From positions 1-46,545 of the IMG/VR virus record IMGVR_UViG_3300020192_000020: 46,545 nucleotides of DNA; one strand, written 5' to 3'. Below, one piece after another: positions 993 through 45,820 of this stretch. Numbering within the stretch: position 1 is the first letter of the stretch; each line of letters starts with the position of its first letter. The position numbers were made by a program, and so were the translations under genes. Origin of the DNA: a virus. The notes under the pieces were generated by a model that was not told the DNA's origin, ran no database searches, and saw only the letters and a program-made list of their open reading frames with translations.

Positions 993-2303
993 ATGGCCAT
1001 CTCAGAGATCGTATCCGTCCAGATCCAGGCCGGGACTGTCAATCCCGCGAGGCGCGGATTCGGTACCCCCTTCATCCTCGCCTACCACACTGCGTGGGCG
1101 GGTACGGAGGTGCGCACGTACACCTCTTTCGCTGGCGTGGCCGCAGATTTCGCAGCGTCCGACATGCCGTATCTGGCTGCCGCCGCGATCTTCGGCCAGA
1201 ATCCCCGGCCGCCCAAGATCAAGGTAGGTCGGCTGCCCGCGCCTGCCACCGGACACACCACGGTGCTGGACTTCGCGGACCACACCACGGGCGCGAACAT
1301 CTCGATGTCGATCGTCGGACCCACTGGGGTGACGACCGATATCGCGGTCACCTGGACCACGAATATCGCGACCACGCTGGGACTACTGGAGACGCAGATC
1401 GAGCTGGTATCGGGGCTCACTGCCACGGTCGCATCCCCAGTCGTCACCGTCGCAGGCGGCGCGACCTTCGGTCGCATGTGGCATTTCTCGGGCGAGACCG
1501 CGAATATCAGGGACACCACTGCTGACTGGGACTACGACGACTCGCTGACAGCACACGCGAACGTCGACGGCGACTGGTACGCTGTGATCACAGACTCGAA
1601 CAGCCCCAAAAACATGGACAAGGTCGCGCGATGGGCCCTTGCGAATGACCGCATCGCGCTGTTCGCTCCGCAGTACACCAAGCCTGCACAGTTCGTCACT
1701 GGCGAGTTCAGCTCGGGCAGTGATTACACTGCTCTCCTCGCGAACGATTCGGCGATCGGGTTGTTCACTGGCAACCCCCGCACTGCGTTCGCAGAGGCGG
1801 CCTGGGCGGGCGGTATGCTCCCCCGGGACCCCGGTAGTGCCACGTGGGCCTACAAGCAGTTGGCGGGCGTAGGCGCCGATTCCTGGACCGCCTCCGAGCG
1901 CACCGCGATCGAGGCGTACGGCGGAAATCATTACGCTACCGAGGCCGCCGTGGCGATCACGCGCCCAGGCAAGGCTTTTGGGGGCGAGTGGATTGACGTG
2001 GTCCGCGGCCTCGACTGGCTACAAGCGCAGCTCGAAGAGCACTTGTTCGCGCTGCTCGTGAACAGCCCGAAAATCCCATACACCGATGTTGGTGTCGGTC
2101 AGATCGTGAGTGAGGTTCGGGCGGTGCTCAAGATCGCCGAGGCCCGCGGTGTACTCGACTCCGGATGGTCCGTGACTGCGCTGGCAGTGGCTGACCAGGA
2201 TACCCTAGACCGCGCGGCGCGCATCCTGCGCGACGTTGAGTTCTCGGCCCGCCTCGCGGGCGCAATCCACACGATCAACATCGTGGGAACGGTAACGGCC
2301 TGA
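993..2303 (+). CDS. Tail sheath protein (DUF3383-like)
   Basis: A 436-residue protein with the DUF3383 pattern: the N-terminal MAISEIVSVQIQ strand, an early RRGFGTPFILAY segment, then a sheath-like alpha/beta body and a C-terminal segment ending SARLAGAIHTINIVGTVTA that in sheaths forms the strand-exchange arm. DUF3383 proteins are the contractile sheath of many small myophages. The gene order (neck, sheath, tube, chaperone, tape measure) supports this. Start ATG 993 follows the previous stop by 3 bases. Sheath plus a separate tube gene is the main proof that this phage has a contractile tail. Confidence 0.85.
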   Translation: MAISEIVSVQIQAGTVNPARRGFGTPFILAYHTAWAGTEVRTYTSFAGVAADFAASDMPYLAAAAIFGQNPRPPKIKVGRLPAPATGHTTVLDFADHTTGANISMSIVGPTGVTTDIAVTWTTNIATTLGLLETQIELVSGLTATVASPVVTVAGGATFGRMWHFSGETANIRDTTADWDYDDSLTAHANVDGDWYAVITDSNSPKNMDKVARWALANDRIALFAPQYTKPAQFVTGEFSSGSDYTALLANDSAIGLFTGNPRTAFAEAAWAGGMLPRDPGSATWAYKQLAGVGADSWTASERTAIEAYGGNHYATEAAVAITRPGKAFGGEWIDVVRGLDWLQAQLEEHLFALLVNSPKIPYTDVGVGQIVSEVRAVLKIAEARGVLDSGWSVTALAVADQDTLDRAARILRDVEFSARLAGAIHTINIVGTVTA

Positions 2304-2304
2304 T

Positions 2305-2739
2305 ATGCGCACCTACGATCCTCGCAAATTCGACATCGTTTTCGCTGGCGTTCATCTCAACGAGGGCGTTGCCGACGGGTCGTTTCTGACCTACTCGAGT
2401 GCTAGTCCGGGCTTCTCGAAGAAGGTCGGAGTGGACGGTACCGTGACGCGCAGTCGCATGCATGACCGCACCGCGGAGGTCCGACTCACGCTGATGCAGT
2501 CGAGTTCGGTCAACGACCGACTCAGTGAGATCTACGCGGCCGACCGAGACGCAGTCAACGGGCAGGGGGTCGGATCGTTCTTTGTTCAGGACCGATCGGG
2601 CACTACGATCTTGCAGGCATCGAAGGCGTACATCGCCGACGATCCCGATCTGACCCTCGACGCCGAGGCGACTACGCGTGAGTGGACCTTCGAGCTGGCC
2701 GACGTCGACGTCACGCACGGCTCCAACACCGACGACTGA
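2305..2739 (+). CDS. Tail tube protein (DUF3277-like)
   Basis: A 144-residue protein beginning MRTYDPRKFDIVFAGVHLN, the typical opening of DUF3277 tube proteins. It contains the recurring 'VDGTVTRSRMHDRTAEVRLTL' type segment, written here as VDGTVTRS followed by EVRLTLMQSSSVND, and ends in a beta-rich domain. It starts one base after the sheath stop. Tube monomers stack as hexamers inside the sheath. Length and order both fit the family. Confidence 0.85.
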   Translation: MRTYDPRKFDIVFAGVHLNEGVADGSFLTYSSASPGFSKKVGVDGTVTRSRMHDRTAEVRLTLMQSSSVNDRLSEIYAADRDAVNGQGVGSFFVQDRSGTTILQASKAYIADDPDLTLDAEATTREWTFELADVDVTHGSNTDD

Positions 2740-2759
2740 TTTCTGCTAGGAGGTAGAGC

Positions 2760-3164
2760 ATGCGAAGTCACGAGGACCGGACGATCGGCAGCACGATCTT
2801 TCGGATCAAGCAGTTGCCGTTCGGGAAGGCGCGGCCCGCCTTCTTGAAGATCTCACAGATCGTCATGCCCGCACTTGCGACTCTGCAAGTGCAGCCCGGG
2901 CAGTCGATACCTATCGAGGCGGCTCTCCGGAGTGCGCTGGGATCTGTGTCCGACGCGGACCTGCAATGGCTGTCTGAGACCTTCGCTTTCGAGTCCCAGT
3001 ATTCGATCGACGGCGGTACCAAGTGGCCGATGTTGGCGCCGAACATGGAGGCCGTGTTCGGCGGCAATATGCTGCTGTTTTTCAAGTGGATCCTCGCGTG
3101 CGCCGAGGTGAACTTCGCGGATTTTTTCGACGCCTTCAGGGGGGGCAACGCACCCGCCCTGTAG
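2760..3164 (+). CDS. Tail assembly chaperone, short (gpG-like) product
   Basis: A 134-residue protein with a very strong ribosome site (AGGAGG) 8 bases before ATG 2760. It has no enzymatic motif and lies between tube and tape measure genes, where long-tailed phages encode the G/GT chaperone pair that coats the tape measure during tail assembly. The frame-0 product ends at 3164, just after a run of seven G. A second open frame (-1) carries on to 3373 without a usable start codon, so a longer fusion is expected (see next entries). Confidence 0.8.
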   Translation: MRSHEDRTIGSTIFRIKQLPFGKARPAFLKISQIVMPALATLQVQPGQSIPIEAALRSALGSVSDADLQWLSETFAFESQYSIDGGTKWPMLAPNMEAVFGGNMLLFFKWILACAEVNFADFFDAFRGGNAPAL

Positions 3165-3373
3165 CGCGTGCGACCACAGCAACCATCGCCATCAAGAACA
3201 CGCTAGCTCCCTCCGGTCTGGACTGGTACGCGTGGCGACTGTACGTCGCGGATAGGGTGAAGGACGGTAAACACGTGATCGATACCGAGTGGTCCCTAGA
3301 TGATGCCCGAGAGGCGCACGAGGCCCTAGACGTGATCGAAGACATGGCCACCATCGCAGGCATGGTAAGATAG
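2760..3373 (+). CDS. Tail assembly chaperone, frameshifted (gpGT-like) product
   Basis: A -1 ribosomal frameshift on the heptamer at 3140-3146 would join 129 residues of the short product to 75 residues of the -1 frame, giving about 204 residues. The extra C-terminal part (from about 3146) reads IAIKNTLAPSGLDWYAWRLY and later acidic DDAREAHEALDVIED, as in T domains that contact the tape measure. No ATG, GTG or TTG lies in this frame between the slip site and the conserved part, so frameshifting is the only evident way to express it. The stop sits 3 bases before the tape measure start. Confidence 0.75.
3140..3146 (+). promoter_or_regulatory. Slippery site for -1 frameshift
   Basis: The heptamer G GGG GGC fits X XXY YYZ in the zero frame (codons GGG at 3141 and GGC at 3144). 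After a -1 slip both tRNAs can re-pair on GGG, and translation continues from 3146 in the frame that ends at 3373. The zero-frame stop is 16 bases downstream. The position and logic match the tail chaperone frameshift of lambda-like phages. The pairing fit is seen directly; use in vivo is inferred. Confidence 0.75.
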
Positions 3374-3376
3374 CGA

Positions 3377-4879
3377 GTGTCCGCTCTACGAGAGGTTTTC
3401 GCGCGCTTCGGTGTGGACTTCGACGCGTCGGCGCTCGTGCGGGGCAACGCGGCTGTCGATACTTCGGTGGCGGGTCTACAGTCCCTCGGAAGTGTGATCG
3501 CAGGGTCTGCCGTAGTCCTCGGGATCAGCAATTTCATCGAAGAGACCCGAGCAATGGGCGACCAGCTCGGTCACGCTGCCGTGTCACTCGGGCTGACTAC
3601 GGCGGCGCTACAGGAGTGGCAGGGTGTCGCTGGGAGCGCCGGTGTGTCGGCTGAGCAGCTCACGCCAGCAATCCAGGCGATGCGGCGCAACGCAAGCGCG
3701 GCGGCGCTGGCTGGCGGTCAGATGGGCCGGGACTTCCGCACGCTCGGTGTGACCTTGCGGGGCACCAACGGAGAGCTGCTCCCCACCAACGATCTGATCC
3801 GGGGTGTGTTCGAGGGCTTGGCCGAGGTAGCCGACCCTACCGAGCGCGCAGCGATCGCCATGCGGCTTCTTGGTGAGAGCGGCGCACGTCTAGGGCCTGT
3901 TTTCACCGAGGGTGCCGCGGGCGTCGAGGCCCAGCTAGCGGCTATCCGCGAGCTGGGCGGAGGCATGTCGGATGAGGCCATCGAGGCGTCACTGGCGCTC
4001 ACCTGGCAGCAGCAGCGCCTGTCGACATCGATGCTCAGTCTGCGCTCTCGGATCGCGGTGTGGTTGCTCCCTGCCGTGTCCCGACTGACCGACGTCACGT
4101 CCGGTCTGGTGCAGGGGTTCTTGCGCCTGGACGCCCGGACGCAGATCCTCAAGGTTGGGCTCGCCACTCTCGGCGCTGTCGCCGTCCTCGCAGGCGTTCG
4201 GACGGCCGCGTCGTGGGTTGCCGCCGCCCTGCCGTTCATCGCCATCGGCGTCGCTTTGGCTGCCTTGGTGTTGATCGTACAAGACATCTGGGTTTCGTTT
4301 CAAGGCGGCGAGTCTGTGATCGCCAACGCCATAGACCGATTTGAGTCGTTCACCGCACTCGGGGCGGATGATGGCCCCCTAGGGATCATGGCACTCGGAC
4401 TACACGCGATCCTGGATCTGCTAACCAGCATCGTCCAGGTGGCCGCTCAGGTCGGCGCGGGCCTGACGGGGCTGTTCGGGTTTGCGGCGGAGGCTGCCGG
4501 CTTCGATGACGCAGCGATGGGCGCGTATCGGACCGCGGTAGCTATGGGCGACTTTGGAGAGCGGGACCTAGCCCTCGAGAACGACGGCTCTGCCGCGGGC
4601 GAGCTAATCAGCGCGCGAGTCGCGGAGAACCGATCGCACGATGCGAATCGTGGGATGATCACCCCCGACGCCTTCGAGCGCGTCATGGCGACTCGCGAGC
4701 TGCGCGCTAGCGGCGCGCTGGGTGGACTGTCGTCGACGGGGGGCATCGTGGTCAATGCCGTGATCAACGCGAACGGCCTCGACGAAGCGGCTGCCGCCCG
4801 GGTTGCGCGCACTGAGATCGGTCGCGCGGTGTCGAGTGCAAACGAGGAAACGCTCGACGCCGTAGGCGGTGGGGCGTGA
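3377..4879 (+). CDS. Tail tape measure protein
   Basis: A 500-residue protein, mostly helical and rich in Ala, with a hydrophobic stretch around residues 265-305 (LATLGAVAVLAGV to IAIGVALAALVLIV), typical of tape measure proteins. It follows the G/GT chaperone as expected. At roughly 1.5 angstroms per residue it predicts a short tail tube of about 75 nm. The start is GTG 3377, three bases after the chaperone frame ends. Its stop overlaps the next start (GTGA), so it is translationally coupled to the baseplate genes. Confidence 0.8.
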   Translation: MSALREVFARFGVDFDASALVRGNAAVDTSVAGLQSLGSVIAGSAVVLGISNFIEETRAMGDQLGHAAVSLGLTTAALQEWQGVAGSAGVSAEQLTPAIQAMRRNASAAALAGGQMGRDFRTLGVTLRGTNGELLPTNDLIRGVFEGLAEVADPTERAAIAMRLLGESGARLGPVFTEGAAGVEAQLAAIRELGGGMSDEAIEASLALTWQQQRLSTSMLSLRSRIAVWLLPAVSRLTDVTSGLVQGFLRLDARTQILKVGLATLGAVAVLAGVRTAASWVAAALPFIAIGVALAALVLIVQDIWVSFQGGESVIANAIDRFESFTALGADDGPLGIMALGLHAILDLLTSIVQVAAQVGAGLTGLFGFAAEAAGFDDAAMGAYRTAVAMGDFGERDLALENDGSAAGELISARVAENRSHDANRGMITPDAFERVMATRELRASGALGGLSSTGGIVVNAVINANGLDEAAAARVARTEIGRAVSSANEETLDAVGGGA

Positions 4880-5535
4880 GTCTCCAGATCTCATGGGCGA
4901 CCGAAGAAAACCTCTTCGAAGGGTCGGGCGTAGTAGTCCCCTCGCAGGTATTTCATCTGCTGGAGTTCGACTGCGTATTGTCCGAGTCGCACGATGCACA
5001 CAGCGAGGTCACCGAGCACGCCGTCGAGAGCGGCGCGCCTATCAGCGATCACAAGCGGGCCACTCCTAGGCGACTCACGATCGAGGGATTCGTGACGAAC
5101 ACCCCGCTCGATGCGCCCCCGTCGAGCGGAGCGGGCGAGACCACGATCACAACGTCGGTCAGTCAGGACGGCGCACAGGTGCGGGTTTTCTCGGAGGAGT
5201 TCGATCGGATCCGCGATGTCTGGGACGTGTTGGAGCGCCTGCGGCTGGATGCTATCCCCGTGGGGATCACCACGACTTGGCGCGACTACGAGGACGTCCA
5301 GATCGTCGGCGTCATGGTCAAGCGCGATAGCCCTGAGGGCGCGGTCCCCTTCATGATCGAGTGCGTTGAGGTACGCATCGCGCGCACGCGCGAAGTCGAC
5401 GACCCCGTTGCTCTAGAGCCTCGGGGTGCAGGCGAGAACAATCGCGGGGCGCGTGAGGGCGAGGACGCCGAGAACACCGCTCCTGTGTCTGTACTAAACG
5501 GGATCGTCGACGCCGCCACCGAGTATTTTCGATGA
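4876..5535 (+). CDS. Baseplate adaptor, Dit-like (DUF6046/Dit N-terminal type)
   Basis: A 219-residue protein starting at GTG 4876 inside the tape measure stop. The central core (about residues 40-170) contains the 'RRLTIEGFVTN' to 'VWDVLERLR' to 'PVGITTTWRDYEDVQIVGV' pattern that I associate with Dit-like N-terminal domains of small myophage baseplates. The tail after residue 175 is low-complexity and charged. Immediately after the tape measure is the usual site of the tube-to-baseplate adaptor. The family call rests on recalled pattern and order. Confidence 0.65.
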   Translation: MSLQISWATEENLFEGSGVVVPSQVFHLLEFDCVLSESHDAHSEVTEHAVESGAPISDHKRATPRRLTIEGFVTNTPLDAPPSSGAGETTITTSVSQDGAQVRVFSEEFDRIRDVWDVLERLRLDAIPVGITTTWRDYEDVQIVGVMVKRDSPEGAVPFMIECVEVRIARTREVDDPVALEPRGAGENNRGAREGEDAENTAPVSVLNGIVDAATEYFR

Positions 5536-9235: not shown

Positions 9236-9927
9236 CGATCACGATCACCCCGAGCAGGTCGACTGTATCGATCGACGCAGCTAGCGGAGAGCTATCCCTG
9301 GTAGTGGCTCGCCCGCATGTGGCGATCGGCCTGTCGGGCACGCAGGGCGTCGCTGGACCCGCGGGCTCGCAGGGCTCGACGGGCTCGACCGGACCCGCGG
9401 GCTCGACCGGACCCGCCGGACCGCAGGGCGATGCGGGCGTGGCTGGACCGCAGGGCTCGACCGGACCCGCGGGCTCGACGGGTAGCGCGGGGCCGCAGGG
9501 CGTCGCAGGGTCTACGGGCTCGACTGGACCCGCAGGGTCTACGGGCTCGACTGGGTCTACAGGCTCGACCGGACCCGCCGGACCACAGGGCGATGCGGGC
9601 GTGGCTGGATCCACCGGACCACAGGGCTCGACTGGACCCGCGGGACCCGACGGACCGCAGGGCGTCGCTGGACCCGCGGGCTCGACTGGACCCGCAGGCT
9701 CGACGGGATCACAGGGTCCTCAGGGCGTCGCTGGACCCGACGGACCGCAGGGCGTCGCAGGCTCTACGGGCGCCGCGGGCTCGACGGGAGCACAGGGCCC
9801 GCAGGGCGTCGCCGGACCTGACGGGCCGCAGGGCGATCCTGGCGGTTTCGTCGGCAACATCGACGGCGGGACTCCGTCGTCGTCGTCTGGGCCTGGGGTT
9901 TTTGCGATCGATGGAGGTGCACCGTGA
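9232..9927 (+). CDS. Collagen-like tail fibre protein
   Basis: A 231-residue protein. After about 35 residues of ordinary sequence, residues about 40-205 are almost uninterrupted Gly-X-Y triplets ([16 protein letters not shown] and similar), then a short Gly/Ser-rich C-terminus. Such segments fold as triple helices and form thin shafts in phage fibres. The DNA is correspondingly repetitive (GGACCCGCGGGCTCGAC-type units), a substrate for length change by recombination. The start is GTG 9232, overlapping the upstream gene. Adhesive domains are probably supplied by the following genes. Confidence 0.85.
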
Positions 9928-24611: not shown

Positions 24612-26795
24612 TCAGACCTCGATACCATCTGCGCGCATGGCGGTCAAGTCCAAACTGCACCACTGCGATCGGCGTTCCAAAGCAGCTCCGGTCACGGGGT
24701 GATTGCGGCGCTGGTGCGTGCGATCGACGATGTAGGGAGACATGACCCGGTGCGCAGCGTGCGGTGTGAGCCACGCGCCCACGGCCACGGCCAGACCTCC
24801 GGGGTTGATCCAAATCAAGTCGCCAGAGACAGCAGCCCAAGGCGCCATATCGGCGCTCTCGATCGCCTCGAACACCGCAGAGGCCTTGTCGCTCCCTCGG
24901 CGCAAGTGCGCGTCGACACTGCCCGACATCGGCTCAGGCTGAGCACAGGTGTGCTCGATCTGGATCCAGCGGATATGGCGAGCCACTCGCAGAGATCTCG
25001 CAGGATCGTTCTCGAACCCGCCCAGCCCAATAGCACGCGCCCGCAGGTCCCGGATCAACTCCGGGTCGTCGATCTCGATCACGAACAGCCGCCGAGTGAT
25101 CGCCGTGATGTCGTGACCGCCGAGACTGCCCGTGTTCGAAAACACACGATCCATGGCGTTCGCGGCCAAAATACAACGCACACCGCCGCGAACGAAGGTG
25201 CGCTTGTTCAAGCCCTTCATCTCGATCTCGTGCAGGGACTCGGTGAGCATCGCACGCAGCTCGGCCGTGAGCGGGCGCCCTCGATGATCCTCAGGCAGGC
25301 CCTCATCACCGAACACGATCGGCCCACGCTCAAGCGGCGTGCGGAACCGAGCACCGAGCACGTCTTTTAGCGCCGTTGCCTTGCGTTGCCCCACACACTG
25401 AGCAAGGGACTCGGCGAGCAACGTCTTACCGATGTGCGACCCACCTACGATCGTGAGCGCGGGCAGCACGCCGAGGCACTTTTCGGGCGCCGCCCAGGCC
25501 AACCAGTCACGCAGTCGATCACCTCCGAGTAGGTCCAGCCACTCAGCTACCTCGGTGTCTTCGAGCGGAGCTACGGGCGTGCTCTCGAGTGATCGGATCA
25601 ACGTGAGATCATCGACGCGCGGCCCGGTCGCCGTGTAGTCCACCTCGATCCGATTGCATGCCTCGCCGTGAGAGACCGCGAGGATCTCTGGCGGGGTCAT
25701 GTCACGCAGCAGACCGCTCTTGGCTGGGATCTGGAGTATGCGTCCCGGCCATAACTTGCGGCACAACGAGTGCAGCCCCCCACTCGTACACGGCCCCTCG
25801 TATCTCAGTCTAGCACGATCGTCGAGCACGAAAAACGCGTCGTCAACTCGCACGATCAAGGGCGTACCACTGGCGCCGATCTCCGCCGATGCCTCGGAGT
25901 CGGCCTCGCGCGAGAGCGAGAGATCGATCAACTCTTGCACCTGGCCGGCGGCCTTTGCCGCGGCGCGTTCCCATTTCTGCGCGACGTGCTCGCGGTCCCA
26001 CTTCGACTGACCGCCGAGGGATGCGCAGTCGGCTCTAAGCCTCGACATCGAGGGCTCCATCAAGGTCGCGATGTCCGAGGCGTCGACCTTGAACCAGGCG
26101 AAGTCATCGTGCTGAGCGCACGCGAGCTGGAAGATCACCTCGGTCGAGAGGTACGAGTCGACGCCGGAGACATGCGGCGCCGTGCCGTCCAGCGTGCCGA
26201 TCACTAGAGCTTGCTCACCGCGAGCGATGAGGCGCAGTGATTCCCATGCATCGCCGCGCCTACCTTGCGCGGTCTCGGCCAGCCGACGACGTAGGTCCTC
26301 TTGCCCGACGTGCATGGACTCGACGTAGACGGGGTCCGTCGCGTGCCTAGCGCGGGGAAGCGCAGCGAGCCACGCATCGGGGAACTCGGCGATCGGCAAG
26401 TCCTCATCGACGACGTAGCCGGGAGTCGGCGGGATGACTACGATCCCACCTTCACCGCGAAGGTCGACGCCCCCGAGACAGGTATTGCCGGGGAGGGTCA
26501 TCGGCGCCTGGGTGCGGATAAGCTCGCGGGTGCGATAGTAGAGATGATATCCATCCGAGGGGGTGCGAATCAAGCGCGTGGCGGGCAGCACGCCGTACTT
26601 TTTTTCGAGGGCTTCGAGGTAGGCCTCGCCCCCTTTGTCGACGTCGATTGCCACGATTCCGCCACTGCGATGGCCGGTCAACATCGCCCGACCCTCGGTG
26701 TCGCGCCGGTCCGGAGGGGAGTCGCCGGCGGCGAGATCGCGCCACTTTACCGCGGGGATCTTCGAACCGCGCATGAGAGGGATCGTAGTGATCAT
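24612..26795 (-). CDS. Primase-polymerase/superfamily 3 helicase fusion
   Basis: A 727-residue replication protein. The N-terminal 160 residues are a bifunctional primase-polymerase domain: VKWRDLAAG, GGIVAIDVDKGGEAYLEAL, RTPSDGYHLYYRT and GNTCLGGVDLRGEGGIVVIPP. The C-terminal half is a virus-type helicase: ALTIVGGSHIGKTLLAESLA (Walker A), GPIVFGDEGLPEDH (B), VRCILAANAMDR (C, with AAN) and a Arg-finger-like AITRRLFVIEID. It would unwind and prime phage DNA. ATG 26795 overlaps the previous stop (ATGA). Confidence 0.88.
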   Translation of the reverse strand: MITTIPLMRGSKIPAVKWRDLAAGDSPPDRRDTEGRAMLTGHRSGGIVAIDVDKGGEAYLEALEKKYGVLPATRLIRTPSDGYHLYYRTRELIRTQAPMTLPGNTCLGGVDLRGEGGIVVIPPTPGYVVDEDLPIAEFPDAWLAALPRARHATDPVYVESMHVGQEDLRRRLAETAQGRRGDAWESLRLIARGEQALVIGTLDGTAPHVSGVDSYLSTEVIFQLACAQHDDFAWFKVDASDIATLMEPSMSRLRADCASLGGQSKWDREHVAQKWERAAAKAAGQVQELIDLSLSREADSEASAEIGASGTPLIVRVDDAFFVLDDRARLRYEGPCTSGGLHSLCRKLWPGRILQIPAKSGLLRDMTPPEILAVSHGEACNRIEVDYTATGPRVDDLTLIRSLESTPVAPLEDTEVAEWLDLLGGDRLRDWLAWAAPEKCLGVLPALTIVGGSHIGKTLLAESLAQCVGQRKATALKDVLGARFRTPLERGPIVFGDEGLPEDHRGRPLTAELRAMLTESLHEIEMKGLNKRTFVRGGVRCILAANAMDRVFSNTGSLGGHDITAITRRLFVIEIDDPELIRDLRARAIGLGGFENDPARSLRVARHIRWIQIEHTCAQPEPMSGSVDAHLRRGSDKASAVFEAIESADMAPWAAVSGDLIWINPGGLAVAVGAWLTPHAAHRVMSPYIVDRTHQRRNHPVTGAALERRSQWCSLDLTAMRADGIEV

Positions 26796-27079: not shown

Positions 27080-27167
27080 ATGTTCCTTGTCGACCCGAAG
27101 GGTCCCTCGCCGCGCCAAGCCATGCCATGCCCAGCCATGCCAGGCCGTGCCGCGCCGAGCCGGGCCA

Positions 27168-27208
27168 TGCGACGCCGAGGAATCGAACCTCAGTGAACCG
27201 TCCGTCGC
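27168..27208 (-). ncRNA. tRNA acceptor/T-arm minihelix C
   Basis: Identical in sequence to unit B over the 40 paired and bulged bases (27208 to 27169), followed by A and then 12 pentamers. It is the unit nearest to the downstream gene at 27079. Confidence 0.65.
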
Positions 27209-27278
27209 TGTTGACCCGAAGGGTCCCTCGCCTTGCCATGCCGCGCCAAGCCCTGCCTTGCCGAGCCCCGCCTCGCCA

Positions 27279-27319
27279 TGCGACGCCGAGGAATCGAACC
27301 TCAGTGAACCGTCCGTCGC
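27279..27319 (-). ncRNA. tRNA acceptor/T-arm minihelix B
   Basis: Same fold as unit A: GCGACG at 27319-27314 pairs with CGTCGC at 27285-27280, and the T-stem is CTGAGG/CCTCGG, where a C-G pair of unit A has become a U-G pair. The bulge is 9 bases. The change keeps pairing, which favours RNA structure. Confidence 0.65.
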
Positions 27320-27389
27320 TGTTGACCCGAAGGGTCCCTTGCCTTGCCACGCCAGGTCACGCCCGGCCTTGCCCCGCCCCGCCTTGCCA

Positions 27390-27431
27390 TGCGACGCCGA
27401 GGAATCGAACCTCGGAGAAACCATTCGTCGC
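27390..27431 (-). ncRNA. tRNA acceptor/T-arm minihelix A
   Basis: Read leftward: GCGACG (27431-27426) pairs with CGTCGC (27396-27391), and CCGAGG pairs with CCTCGG around the seven-base loop TTCGATT, the canonical T-loop. The two helices total 12 base pairs and stack without a gap on the 3' side, as acceptor plus T-stem do in tRNA. A 10-base bulge replaces the D and anticodon arms. A discriminator-like A follows (27390), but no CCA. Confidence 0.65.
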
Positions 27432-27438
27432 TGTGAAC

Positions 27439-27972
27439 CTAGCTCTTCCGATGCTCCGCGTGCTCCTCGGCCTTCTGCTTAGCATACGCCGCAGAGTCCG
27501 CACGCAACTTCTCAGAGGCGACGCGCTTATCGGCCACGTGCCGAGCCTGGGCACGCACCGCGGCGATCTGCACCTCCGCGATCGCGAGCCGGGTAGCCTC
27601 GGCCGAGGTCGCAGGATCGAAGTACGAGATCCTGCGAGATGCGCCCTTCACAGCACGCTGGATCTCGAGCCCCATATCACGCATCGCAACCCCTATGTGC
27701 TTGTCGTGGGGCACCAGCTCGTACGTGCCTTGACGCGAAGCGCGCAAGTCGACCCGGTGCGTCCCGCCCAACTCCTCCTTGATCAACGTGACGTACTTCA
27801 CGAAGCGCAGCTCCGCCTTGGAGTGCTCTCGCGACGTCAACGCCACCTCGCTGCACTTAGCAGTGAGCCCGCAGAGTTCGCGGAGATGGTCGGTCTTCCA
27901 CTCCACGATGCCTGCCTCCATGCCGGCCACGATCCGCAGGTAGCACTCGCGCCAAGGCTCCATCCCCCTCAC
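27439..27972 (-). CDS. Hypothetical protein of replication operon
   Basis: A 177-residue, mostly helical, charged protein starting MRGMEPWRECYLRIVAGMEA and ending in a Lys/Glu-rich tail (YAKQKAEEHAEHRKS). No catalytic motif is recognised. ATG 27972 overlaps the upstream stop (ATGA). Its 3' end lies 8 bases before the tandem RNA-like array, so the array is in its transcript. Confidence 0.65.
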   Translation of the reverse strand: MRGMEPWRECYLRIVAGMEAGIVEWKTDHLRELCGLTAKCSEVALTSREHSKAELRFVKYVTLIKEELGGTHRVDLRASRQGTYELVPHDKHIGVAMRDMGLEIQRAVKGASRRISYFDPATSAEATRLAIAEVQIAAVRAQARHVADKRVASEKLRADSAAYAKQKAEEHAEHRKS

Positions 27973-28556
27973 GACGCCACCTCGACAGTGAAGCGACCAA
28001 AGCGGGCGCGGAAGTCGCCGATCCCCGTGTACCTGCCGGCGTCCCCCATCACGCGCTCGAGGTCCTCGCGGGAGATACGGTCATCCACGATCGAGAGGGT
28101 GAACTCGAGGCTCCACCGGGAGAACTTGGGCCGCGTCCGCATGATCTTCGCCTGACCCACCTTGACGCCGCACCGGTGCACATGCACCGTACCTCGCTCC
28201 CACATGGCGTCGAGGGTCCGCGGGCCCTCGTAGAGGATGGGGACCATATCGCTGCCGAGGAGGTGCACGGACCGCTCGACCTCCTTGCCGAGCTTGCTCA
28301 GCCGGGCCCCCTCGCGGATCGCAGCCAAGATGTTGAACGCCGGCAGGTAGGGGCCTACCGACTCGTCCCAGTACAACCCGCCGTCCCACTCGGCGCGGGC
28401 GACATCCTCGACGTGCGTCTCAGTCTTCTTCGCGTTACCCCTGCGGGACGTCAGGGCGCTCAGCGCCTTGGCTGCCGGCGACATGGGGTCCGCCAGCTGT
28501 TCGTTGTGACAGAGCAAAGGGTTAGTTCCAATCCACTTTACATTCAGAGTTTGCAT
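27969..28556 (-). CDS. Conserved phage protein, first gene of leftward operon
   Basis: A 195-residue protein starting MQTLNVKWIGTNPLLCHNEQ. The C-terminal part has RTRPKFSRWSLEFTLSIVDD and MGDAGRYTGIGDFRARFGRF; this Gly-rich 'GIGD-RPxxGRF' ending recurs in many phage proteins of unknown function and recalls RAMP-type folds only loosely. As first gene after the strong promoter it should be expressed early. Ribosome site AAGGCAGG precedes ATG 28556. Confidence 0.7.
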   Translation of the reverse strand: MQTLNVKWIGTNPLLCHNEQLADPMSPAAKALSALTSRRGNAKKTETHVEDVARAEWDGGLYWDESVGPYLPAFNILAAIREGARLSKLGKEVERSVHLLGSDMVPILYEGPRTLDAMWERGTVHVHRCGVKVGQAKIMRTRPKFSRWSLEFTLSIVDDRISREDLERVMGDAGRYTGIGDFRARFGRFTVEVAS

Positions 28557-28581: not shown

Positions 28582-28622
28582 CCGAGTAGCTCGGACGGGG
28601 ACTCTAACCGAGGCGGCCTCGG
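28582..28622. promoter_or_regulatory. Paired CCGAG palindromes, probable operators
   Basis: Two dyads share the same half-site: CCGAGG-CGG-CCTCGG (28608-28622), lying in the promoter spacer, and CCGAG-TAG-CTCGG (28582-28594), just past the start point. Their centres are 27 bases apart. A protein bound there would block the polymerase. The repressor is unknown; the HTH-like product of 26792-27079 is one candidate. Confidence 0.55.
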
Positions 28623-28629
28623 GGGTCAA
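28601..28629 (-). promoter_or_regulatory. Leftward sigma70-like promoter of the replication operon
   Basis: Read leftward: TTGACC (28629-28624), 17 bases, TAGAGT (28606-28601), with an A-tract just upstream. The operon's first start codon is 45 bases downstream. The hexamers and spacing fit a strong sigma70 promoter, so early expression by the host polymerase is likely. Confidence 0.7.
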
Positions 28630-28653: not shown

Positions 28654-28689
28654 TGTCTTGGTTGTCTTGGTTGTCTTGGTTGTCTTGGT
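28654..28689. repeat. Four tandem 9-base iterons
   Basis: Four exact head-to-tail copies of TGTCTTGGT. A near-identical variant (TGTCTAGGT) and inverted copies lie downstream (see origin entry). A period of nine gives less than one helical turn per unit, so neighbouring sites face different sides of the helix. Confidence 0.85.
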
Positions 28690-36282: not shown

Positions 36283-37701
36283 GTGACCGATCTACACGCT
36301 GTCGGGATCGCCCTGGACAGGCACCTGGTCGAGCGCGAGGGGCTGCGTGGGTTCGTGCGTCGCGCTTGGCACATCGTCGAGCCGAACGAATACCGGGCCT
36401 CGTGGCATATCGACGTGATCTGCGATCACCTAGAGGCGCTCCTGGCGGGCGATATCCTCGATCTCTGCATCTGTCAACCGCCCGGCACGAGCAAGAGCCT
36501 GATCGCAAGTACCCTATTCCCCGCGTATTGCTGGATCCGCAAGCCCGCGCTGCGTATCATCTCCAGCTCGTACGCGCAAGGGATCGCAGAGAAAAACTCG
36601 AAAATGCATCGAGATCTCGTAGCGTCCGATTGGTTCCAGTCTCGGTGGGGTGGCGCCAGGATCGGCAAGGACGATCTGAACAAGGTGCGTTTGTTCACCA
36701 ACGAGGCGCTCGGCTGGCGATTCACGACGTCGGTGGGCGGCGAGGCCACAGGACGCCACGCCGATCTCTTGATCGGTGACGACCTGGTAAAAGTCCAGGA
36801 CGTCACCGGCGCGTACATCGTAGAGCCCGAGGCGATAGCGCGAGCGAATGAATTTTGGTTCGGCACTATGAGGACGCGTAGGGCCGATCCGCTCACCACT
36901 CGAAGGCTCCTGATAGGGCAGCGGCTGCACTCAGACGACGCCCCAGGTCGCGCGATCGAGGAGGGCTACACAGCCCTCGTGCTCCCGATGGAGTACGACG
37001 CGCGCATAGCGTCGACCACAGATCGACGCAAGGATCCCGGAGAGCTGCTCGTGCCCGACCGCTTCCCGCGATCTGTGGTCGACGCGGACAAGGCGCGCAT
37101 GCCCCCGCGCGACTACGCCGCGCAGTTTCAGCAGTCCCCGACGAGCGCGACGGGGTCGATCTTCAAGAATGTTGGCGCGAAGCGCTGGGCGACTCTGCCA
37201 AAAAACGGGCGCACCATCATCACGGTGGACGCCACATTCAAGGACAGCAAGACCTCCGACTTCGTCGCGATCCAGGTGTGGCACGGCGATCACCCCCGTT
37301 TCTATTTGCTCGAAGAGCACGCGGAGCGGCTCAGCTTTTCGCGCACTGTGGACCGTATCCGCCAAGTCAAGGCGAACTTCCCGATTGCGGCGATCTACAT
37401 CGAAGACAAGGCAAACGGACCCGCGATCATCGACACGCTGAAAGATCTGGTGACCGGGGTGCTCGCATGGAGCCCCGGGACGGCAAGCAAGATCTCGCGC
37501 GCCGAGGCGAAAGCTCACTTGTTCGAGGCGGGAAATGTGCTACTGCCCGAGGGCGATCTCGAGGCGTATATCTCCGAGCTTCACAAATTCCCGCGCGGGA
37601 AACACGACGATCGCGTCGACGGAACGACCATGGCGCTGATGATTTTGGACGCCCAAGGCACAGCAAATTACGCGGCTTTTGTGCGAGGGTTGAGACGATG
37701 A
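36283..37701 (+). CDS. Terminase large subunit
   Basis: A 472-residue packaging motor. ATPase motifs: LCICQPPGTSKSLIAS (Walker A variant G-T-S-K-S), RIISSSYAQGIAEKN, and HADLLIGDDLVKVQD (Walker B). Nuclease domain: RTIITVDATFKDSKTSDFVA (first Asp of the RNase H fold), IYIEDKANGP and HDDRVDGTTMAL. It cuts concatemers and pumps DNA into the capsid. Start GTG 36283. The overlap-free small gap after terS fits a coupled pair. Confidence 0.9.
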   Translation: MTDLHAVGIALDRHLVEREGLRGFVRRAWHIVEPNEYRASWHIDVICDHLEALLAGDILDLCICQPPGTSKSLIASTLFPAYCWIRKPALRIISSSYAQGIAEKNSKMHRDLVASDWFQSRWGGARIGKDDLNKVRLFTNEALGWRFTTSVGGEATGRHADLLIGDDLVKVQDVTGAYIVEPEAIARANEFWFGTMRTRRADPLTTRRLLIGQRLHSDDAPGRAIEEGYTALVLPMEYDARIASTTDRRKDPGELLVPDRFPRSVVDADKARMPPRDYAAQFQQSPTSATGSIFKNVGAKRWATLPKNGRTIITVDATFKDSKTSDFVAIQVWHGDHPRFYLLEEHAERLSFSRTVDRIRQVKANFPIAAIYIEDKANGPAIIDTLKDLVTGVLAWSPGTASKISRAEAKAHLFEAGNVLLPEGDLEAYISELHKFPRGKHDDRVDGTTMALMILDAQGTANYAAFVRGLRR

Positions 37702-37932: not shown

Positions 37933-39402
37933 ATGAGTTTTGTGGACGATGTCAAGTCGAAGCTGCGCGTTGACGGCTTCGTGAACCTGCTCACGGGTCT
38001 CGGCGGGACGCGTGATCGATCGGTGCGATCGTACGTCCAAGGCGTGGTCCCGCTCACCCCCACCGAGCTAGAGGCGCTGTATCACGGGAGCGACCTGCCG
38101 GGAAAGATCGTCGACGCGCTCCCCACGGACGCGATGCGACAGGGGATCTTGACCGGAGATCCGGATCTCGACCTAGCAATCGAGCGCTGGAAGGCGCTTG
38201 ACTTGTTCCTCGATGCGTGGATCTGGGGTCGACTGTACGGGCAAGGGGCGCTCGTGCTCGGGTTTAGCGATCTTCGAGGTAAGGTCGATCAACCTCTCGA
38301 TTGGAGCACGATCCGCGAGGGAGATCTCCGGTACATCATGCCTGTCGAGGCTCAGGATCTGGCGCCCGCCGACTACATCGAGGACCGCACAGATCCTCGA
38401 TACGGCGAGGCGCGCACGTACCGAATTGGGTCCAGCACCGATGCGCGCGTCCACTCGTCTCGCATGCTGTTGTTTGGCGGTGCACGCACCAGCCCGCGCG
38501 TGAAGGCGCGCAATTCTGGGCGAGATCTGAGCGTGCTACAGCGCCCCTACGAGGTGCTGCGCGACGTCGATTCCGCGTGGCGCGCAGTGATGCTGCTCAT
38601 GCAAGATCTCTCGCAAGCAGTCTTCAAGATCAAGGACCTCGCTTCGATGGTCGCGAATGGTCAGGGCCAGATCGCCATGGATCGCATGGCGCTTGTGGAC
38701 ATCGCACGATCGGTCGCGCGTGCTGTGGTCATCGACGCGGAGTCCGAGAGTTTCGAGCACGTCGGCGCGGCGAACCTAACCGGTGTTGATCCGCTGCTCG
38801 TGCGCGTGTTTACGAGGCTCGCCGCGGCCGCGGATATGCCAGTGACGATCTTGATGGGCATGAGCCCGGCGGGCATGAACGCAACGGGAGAGGCTGATAT
38901 CCGTATCTGGTATGCCAAGGTCGGCGCGGCTCGTCGCGACGCCTTGCCGAACCTACGCAAGCTAATCTGGTTGATCGCGCGCACCGAGGGGCTACATGAG
39001 GCGCACACGCTCCAATGGCCGTCCCTCTGGGACGCCACCGAGCAAGAGCAAGCTGCGCTCGAACTCACTCGCGCCCAGGGCGCGCAGATCCGTATCGGGA
39101 GCCAGATGACGACCTCGGCCGAGGAGCGCGTACTGTGGGCGACCGGGCAGGAGCCGAGCGCGCTTGACGCCGAGTCGGAGGCGGACTCCCTCGATGTGTC
39201 GGCCGCGATCACTACCGCACTGCCCGAGCCCGACTCGATCTGGATCGACACGTTCGACGCGCATCGGATCCAAGTCAACGCGGTGAGCGGAGGCAAGGTT
39301 TACTGCCAAGATCTCAGCTCTGAGACTCCAGATCTCCAGTATTCGTGGGCTCTCACGACCTTCCTCGATCGGTGTCGCCCTCTCCCTCCGGCGATCGCGT
39401 GA
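37933..39402 (+). CDS. Portal protein (DUF1073 type)
   Basis: A 489-residue portal. The N-terminal part contains LYHGSDLPGKIVDALPTDAM, then AWIWGRLYGQGALVLGF and RTYRIGSS; the centre has FTRLAAAADMPVTILMGMSP and GMNATGEADIRIWY, both typical of the DUF1073/Phage_portal_3 family. The C-terminal tail (about 430-489) is an added small domain. Twelve copies form the ring through which DNA passes. The start has a GATGGGCCC leader and no strong ribosome site. Confidence 0.88.
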   Translation: MSFVDDVKSKLRVDGFVNLLTGLGGTRDRSVRSYVQGVVPLTPTELEALYHGSDLPGKIVDALPTDAMRQGILTGDPDLDLAIERWKALDLFLDAWIWGRLYGQGALVLGFSDLRGKVDQPLDWSTIREGDLRYIMPVEAQDLAPADYIEDRTDPRYGEARTYRIGSSTDARVHSSRMLLFGGARTSPRVKARNSGRDLSVLQRPYEVLRDVDSAWRAVMLLMQDLSQAVFKIKDLASMVANGQGQIAMDRMALVDIARSVARAVVIDAESESFEHVGAANLTGVDPLLVRVFTRLAAAADMPVTILMGMSPAGMNATGEADIRIWYAKVGAARRDALPNLRKLIWLIARTEGLHEAHTLQWPSLWDATEQEQAALELTRAQGAQIRIGSQMTTSAEERVLWATGQEPSALDAESEADSLDVSAAITTALPEPDSIWIDTFDAHRIQVNAVSGGKVYCQDLSSETPDLQYSWALTTFLDRCRPLPPAIA

Positions 39403-45521: not shown

Positions 45522-45820
45522 CACCTATCCCCATGACGCTCGCCGAGGCTGCGGTCGAGATAGCCGGTATCGCAGGGCTGGACAGCAGGCAGTCGCGTGC
45601 GGTCACGGTCGCAATGCGGACGGCGCAGAGAGCCCGCACGTCGAGCACGTCGCAAGTCAACACCATCGCCGATCTGATCTTCGCGCGCGACGCGCAGCGC
45701 AGCGCGCTCGATGCCATCGATCGCGCGTTCGCCGATCTGATCCTCGCGCGCGACGCGCAACGCGGTGCGCTCGACGCGCTCGATCGAGCTATCGGTACGG
45801 CAACCACGGTGGACGTCTAG
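45512..45820 (+). CDS. Helical protein with two 21-residue repeats
   Basis: A 102-residue protein from GTG 45512 (or 95 residues from ATG 45533). The C-terminal half contains two tandem copies of a 63-base unit (45669-45731 and 45732-45794), each giving ADLI(F/L)ARDAQR(S/G)ALDA(I/L)DRA. The repeats make a regular amphipathic helix. It lies between connector proteins, so it may be structural. No family recognised. Confidence 0.55.
   Translation: MSIAPIPMTLAEAAVEIAGIAGLDSRQSRAVTVAMRTAQRARTSSTSQVNTIADLIFARDAQRSALDAIDRAFADLILARDAQRGALDALDRAIGTATTVDV

Follow-up and report, generated by a model that had tools for sequence, protein, structure and literature searches.

Viral Interference Programmable Repeat (VIPR) systems, presented in a 2026 preprint (bioRxiv 2026.04.26.720920; PMC13142463), are phage-encoded relatives of CRISPR that are used to silence rival elements. 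As described there, VIPR consists of the ancestral RAMP protein Vipr, the accessory component Vap and guide RNAs (vrRNAs) made of 9-16 YNNGG repeats, in which the NN dinucleotides pair with DNA, one base being skipped; formation of the ribonucleoprotein, DNA binding and silencing of competing elements are results of that study (PMC13142463). The vrRNAs, ~100 nt in length, are described as carrying an invariable structured 3' tail, and arrays interspersed with hammerhead ribozymes have been reported (PMC13142463), a precedent for self-contained elements between vrRNAs. Tandem guide-RNA arrays in phages, as in the case described below, are also known from TIGR-Tas, which was found starting from the guide-interaction domain of Cas9 and is built on Tas proteins (PMC12045711).

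We analysed a 46,545-bp IMG/VR virus record over its whole length (hereafter, the window) and identify a repetitive block at 27092-27431 on its minus strand as the vrRNA array of a VIPR system, with a probability of roughly 0.9. This assignment would place the phage in a very recently described RNA-guided class thought to predate CRISPR. Similar to the VIPR of the SUSP1 and P. fulva clades, the locus is phage-encoded and combines a vipr RAMP gene and a vap gene with GGY/NN tracts of the published length, the array lying directly downstream of the two genes. Together, vipr, vap, the array and then a small DUF5559-like gene form the head of a minus-strand replication operon encoding Prim-Pol, a PD-(D/E)XK nuclease, an exonuclease, a helicase and DNA polymerase A. 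The features of the window are listed below, those on the minus strand in the 5' to 3' direction of that strand.

28601-28629, minus strand: weak sigma-70-like promoter TTGACC-17-TAGAGT upstream of vipr (1 found versus 0.5 expected, so no evidence alone)
27969-28556, minus strand: vipr, RAMP/Cas7-like guide-RNA-binding protein, 195 aa (phrog_4652, E 6e-53)
27439-27972, minus strand: vap, accessory gene, 177 aa (phrog_5926, E 8.5e-6)
27391-27431, minus strand: T-loop minihelix 1, the leader, immediately past the vap stop codon (fold; covariance model 39.4 bits, E 3.7e-6)
27341-27390, minus strand: vrRNA tract 1, 10 pentamers, NN = AT AA GG GG AA CG GT CT GT AA
27324-27336, minus strand: hairpin GACCC-TTC-GGGTC past tract 1
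27280-27319, minus strand: T-loop minihelix 2 (fold; covariance model)
27230-27279, minus strand: vrRNA tract 2, 10 pentamers, NN = AT GA GG TC AA AG TT GC AT AA
27213-27225, minus strand: hairpin GACCC-TTC-GGGTC past tract 2
27169-27208, minus strand: T-loop minihelix 3 (covariance model)
27109-27168, minus strand: vrRNA tract 3, 12 pentamers, NN = AT CC TC GC AC CT AT TG AT AT TT GC
27092-27104, minus strand: hairpin GACCC-TTC-GGGTC past tract 3, without a minihelix behind it; the ATG of the next gene lies ~11 bases on
24612-26795, minus strand: Prim-Pol primase/helicase, downstream of the array (Pfam Prim-Pol, E 7e-15)
993-2303, plus strand: tail sheath (myovirus structural gene)
36283-37701, plus strand: terminase (myovirus structural gene)
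37933-39402, plus strand: portal (myovirus structural gene)

Searched as a single sequence with phmmer, the window Vipr matches PDB entry 36pp, 'SUSP1 Vipr protein', with an E-value of 1.4e-32, and the profile of its family does so with an E-value of 5.8e-80. Its AlphaFold (AF2) model has a pLDDT of 92.2, and among the 50 structural matches listed for it by VIA-align, all are CRISPR Cas7-type effectors (Z 9.3-10.9). The family is absent from Pfam, NCBIfam and PADLOC. The product of vap is predicted by homology to bind DNA, and the homologue in Gordonia phage MakoManhole is annotated as 'DNA binding protein'. The initial annotation, made from the letters of the window, overlooked that the two genes upstream of the array form part of the system and held that no described system has such a combination of features, which was wrong, given that both the pentamers and the protein encoded next to them are known from VIPR. 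The RAMPs of class 1 CRISPR (Cas7, Csm3 and gRAMP) have the Cas7-type fold and the guide-binding filament logic in common with the window, which differs in its single small protein, its pentamer code and its location in a phage genome, with no cas1 or cas2 seen. A class 1 CRISPR-Cas system was considered and rejected: pentamer tracts replace contiguous spacers, and only vipr and vap adjoin the array.

Each of the three units of the array comprises a minihelix, a pentamer run and a GACCC-TTC-GGGTC hairpin, and the flanking genes are encoded on the same strand as all of these elements. In the NNGGC pentamers, we recognise the GGY/NN code of vrRNA guides; GGC is kept in 31 of 32 (the sole deviant is GTGAC), the NN dinucleotides differ from tract to tract, and the tract lengths of 10, 10 and 12 fit the VIPR range of 9-16 GGY/NN pentamers with hypervariable NN. 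Upon folding, each minihelix forms a 12-bp stack (6 bp + 6 bp) closed by the loop TTCGATT, with energies of -18.7 and -16.6 kcal/mol (z of -2.6 and -1.4). A T-loop followed by four GGC pentamers is seen nine times in the window, against 0.00 expected by chance, the nine matches being overlapping registers of the three units. On the minus strand, the three-unit anatomy, the pentamer counts and the 12-bp T-loop stack are just as first annotated, and the claim that units differ in length by whole pentamers holds from the T-loop of minihelix 1 onward (T-loop-to-T-loop spacings of 111 and 111) but fails upstream of it, where the linker of minihelix 1 has one additional base (45 versus 44 nt in trimmed references). 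All three tracts are followed by the hairpin, and beyond it a minihelix is found after two tracts only. Folded as a whole, the block is of ordinary stability (z -1.2), and its structure is therefore local. Rfam at the gathering threshold gave no match to the window array or to eight related loci, and blastn of the array against phages was equally empty, so that the array family is visible only via pattern or protein.

A pattern search for a T-loop with pentamers retrieved viral contigs in which vipr and vap homologues lie beside the array. Protein searches yielded 122 loci with vipr, a set that includes some contigs fetched twice; vap adjoins vipr in 111 of these, and 89 show one or more stringent GGY tracts within -1.2/+2 kb of vipr, with no tracts farther away in 609 kb of the same loci. 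Among representative vipr loci (<80% identity), a tract is present in 33 of 40. The cassette is also found in isolates, namely, Gordonia phages MakoManhole and Trine, Mycobacterium phages LittleE and prophiBWHA-1, Pseudomonas phage Medea1 and Felixounavirus wV8; in LittleE and Medea1, it is inserted between tail genes in a moron-like manner. This recurrence in many independent viral contigs and isolate phages rules out an assembly artefact, the concern raised when the block was first noticed. A search with the RNA pattern alone (fixed linker ATGGTY, GTTCGAYTC and a short pentamer run) recovered 16 contigs, 15 of which carry a vipr homologue, two of them weak (E 6e-6). The T-loop minihelix thus occurs in ~20 phages, almost always beside vipr. 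Tips with the T-loop label group together in the tree (6 changes versus 13.7 when shuffled), yet do not define one clade and, as the T-loop loci in the tree were partly selected by pattern, we claim no origin for this type. A pattern scan of genomes was left unused since most of its matches were ordinary tRNAs or GGC runs arising by chance in coding sequence. A 5-kb contig devoid of vipr (L160) contains, at 2200-2550, pentamer-like GGC/GCC runs on both strands and a T-loop-like match.

The window differs from the described VIPR lineages in what separates the guides. Instead of the T-loop minihelices and small hairpin of the window, SUSP1 has a pseudoknot tail, the VIPR of Pseudomonas prophages has three hairpins and that of Felix-type phages a different structure between the tracts, and some further lineages have very short tails. 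Tails of the latter kind (GGGATTTRAAACATCAC) occur in a VIPR array at L114:700-1000 and 1520-1660, a possible minimal variant. The main text of the preprint contains no mention of a tRNA, a tRNA-like element or a T-loop (PMC13142463). Punctuation by T-loop minihelices appears to be a new part on a VIPR locus, and the variant may already be recorded in the supplement of the preprint.

When 195 tracts from related loci were decoded and searched against all of the collected DNA, with one base skipped and two missing dinucleotides tolerated, 161 near-perfect targets were obtained, as compared to 5 with skip 0, 2 with skip 2 and 2 with shuffled codes at skip 1; the 161 matches are not independent, being repeated across related prophages, but the contrast to the controls is large. 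Matches at skip 3 were discarded because they represented tracts matching themselves. The one-base-skip code is here reproduced outside the laboratory that discovered it, and its confirmation extends only to loci that lack T-loops. Among the decoded targets, a site ~80 bases from the start of vipr in rival prophages is frequent, such that rival VIPR genes themselves appear as targets in related loci. The vrRNAs of other Pseudomonas-type prophages (L052 and L036) decode to the conserved TKAHKEL region of the rival vipr genes in L026-L058. For guides 1 and 2 of the window, the exact 9-dinucleotide cores had no matches in viral contigs, and the four viral-contig matches of guide 3 to the nine dinucleotides searched were rejected as chance, with the flanking dinucleotides all mismatching; none of the three guides had a target among the collected related loci either. 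Guide 2 of LittleE, the longest guide of the T-loop type in that phage, had no target in viral contigs or, with up to three mismatches, in 401 genomes from the GTDB family to which a Nocardia genome belongs.

The minihelices themselves show extensive compensatory change, together with an invariant T-loop. Across 54 distinct copies, 270 of 270 T-stem pairs are formed, compared to at most 204 in shuffled sequences, a percentage biased upward by preselection of the rows for at least four of five pairs. However, up to six pair types are found per T-stem position, a variety that preselection does not explain. An acceptor of at least 5 bp is formed in 56 of 58 minihelices, where shuffling of the upstream bases gives an expectation of 19.8, and the linker contains GG in 51 of 54, mostly as ATGGTCGTA or ACGGCATACA, which makes it D-loop-like. 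The T-loop lies 12 nt from the acceptor end, the tRNA value, in 35 of 58 copies and 11-13 nt from it in 57. A covariance model of the minihelix matches VIPR loci only, including two outside the training set (L066 and L144), and finds nothing in 24 non-VIPR loci, some with true tRNAs. With the consistent strand and the T-loop, the strong covariation upholds the early proposal that the array acts as RNA, and the relatives anticipated for it, with conserved pairing and a varying number of pentamers, exist. A genuine tRNA gene was sought in the window and rejected: ARAGORN finds none, and there is only an acceptor-like stem with a T-arm, devoid of D and anticodon arms. The ~12-bp coaxial acceptor/T stack with its T-loop fits the geometry of a substrate of RNase P or RNase Z.

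In two related loci, complete tRNA genes occupy the place of a minihelix. L154 carries a tRNA-Ile gene at the position of the leader minihelix, eight bases before a tract, and L164 (the contig of L002) carries at 1449-1525 a tRNA-Met gene with encoded CCA between two tracts, 17 bases past one and five bases ahead of the next; the L164 case was selected, as the pattern demanded a T-loop beside pentamers, whereas that of L154 came without such a pattern. The L154 array (1780-5250) is very large: its tracts, over ten in number, flank vipr on both sides, and a small hairpin follows each minihelix. L164 has a pentamer-like tract on the opposite strand at ~1150-1290.

Given the tRNA-like length of the minihelix, its placement between guides and the tRNA genes found in its place, we tentatively favour a role in tRNA-type processing punctuation between guides. 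Such punctuation was among the roles proposed initially and is the best reading of the minihelix on comparative evidence, although as an inferred function it stays somewhat short of even odds. In the window, the last tract is followed by nothing but the plain hairpin, which speaks for the hairpin as tail and for the minihelix as separator, and the minihelix is accordingly no obligatory 3' tail there, none following tract 3. A close rival, which we regard as nearly an even bet, is that the minihelix in this VIPR array is a retained 3' tail, serving for protection or as a handle for the last Vipr subunit, rather than a spacer that is cut out and discarded; a single RNase Z-like cut past the minihelix would then generate both the 3' end of the preceding guide and the 5' end of the following one. 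The invariable structured tail of the ~100-nt vrRNAs (PMC13142463) is in line with retention, as are several arrays (e.g. L004 and L159) that have one minihelix more than tracts and end in a minihelix, but the last tract of the window, like that of the LittleE array downstream of vap, terminates in a plain hairpin with no minihelix, and minihelices are as frequent upstream as downstream of tracts (45 and 45, n = 71). The initial suggestion of a decoy, with minihelices titrating tRNA-modifying enzymes or tRNA-cleaving defence nucleases and pentamers as mere spacers, is unsupported and highly improbable: the minihelices do mimic the tRNA elbow, but they are strictly associated with vipr and, with ARAGORN detecting no tRNA in the window, offer no anticodon arm for anticodon nucleases to cleave, and other VIPR lineages keep the pentamers while swapping in unrelated hairpins, so that what stays constant is the pentamers rather than the minihelix. 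The protein-binding scaffold suggested along with it came close, in that the RAMP protein encoded next to the array loads the pentamers as its guide segment. Still less probable is a DNA element, such as iterons or protein-binding repeats of the replication region, since, despite the adjoining replication genes and the 5-bp period of the GGC repeats, the orientation matches the vipr-vap strand, compensatory changes include G-U pairs, a T-loop is present and relatives also reside between tail genes.

If the block is a vrRNA array, Vipr protomers would align along the pentamer run, with each protomer holding GGY and exposing NN, and the NN string would pair with double-stranded DNA, one base being skipped between pairs. 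The bound complex would repress its target, which normally belongs to a competing phage, satellite or prophage; we infer that this particular locus functions in this manner. In the T-loop sub-family, the guides would be transcribed as one array together with vipr-vap, and the minihelices most likely recruit host tRNA-processing enzymes which would cut the array into single guides, by RNase Z past the acceptor stem and perhaps by RNase P ahead of the minihelix. Conceivably, with chances a little under one half, this VIPR branch adopted tRNA mimicry, such that essential tRNA maturation enzymes of the host free the guides at minimal acceptor/T-arm minihelices with a D-loop-like GG contact, and minihelices and tRNA genes are interchangeable; the array would then be a natural tRNA-guide polycistron, possibly stemming from tRNA genes caught in arrays. 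In engineered polycistronic tRNA-guide RNA arrays, guides are separated by tRNA units. As in the window, tRNA or tRNA-like units cleavable by tRNA-processing enzymes are placed between guides; the window array differs in being natural, most units of this type having minimal minihelices, and in that cleavage is putative. Should tRNA enzymes cut the arrays, the guides would rely on machinery indispensable to the host, and a tRNA-guide architecture that is both natural and compact would be available. With ~20 phages and >50 minihelices, the present set of loci makes the release of VIPR guides from arrays directly testable.

Elsewhere in the window, four perfect copies of TGTCTTGGT are located at 28654-28689, ~100 bp upstream of vipr, and might represent an operator. 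Collagen-like Gly-X-Y coding repeats at 9341-9844 lie in a probable tail-fibre gene region, and a 63-bp tandem repeat, in nearly two copies, lies within a coding frame at 45666-45786.
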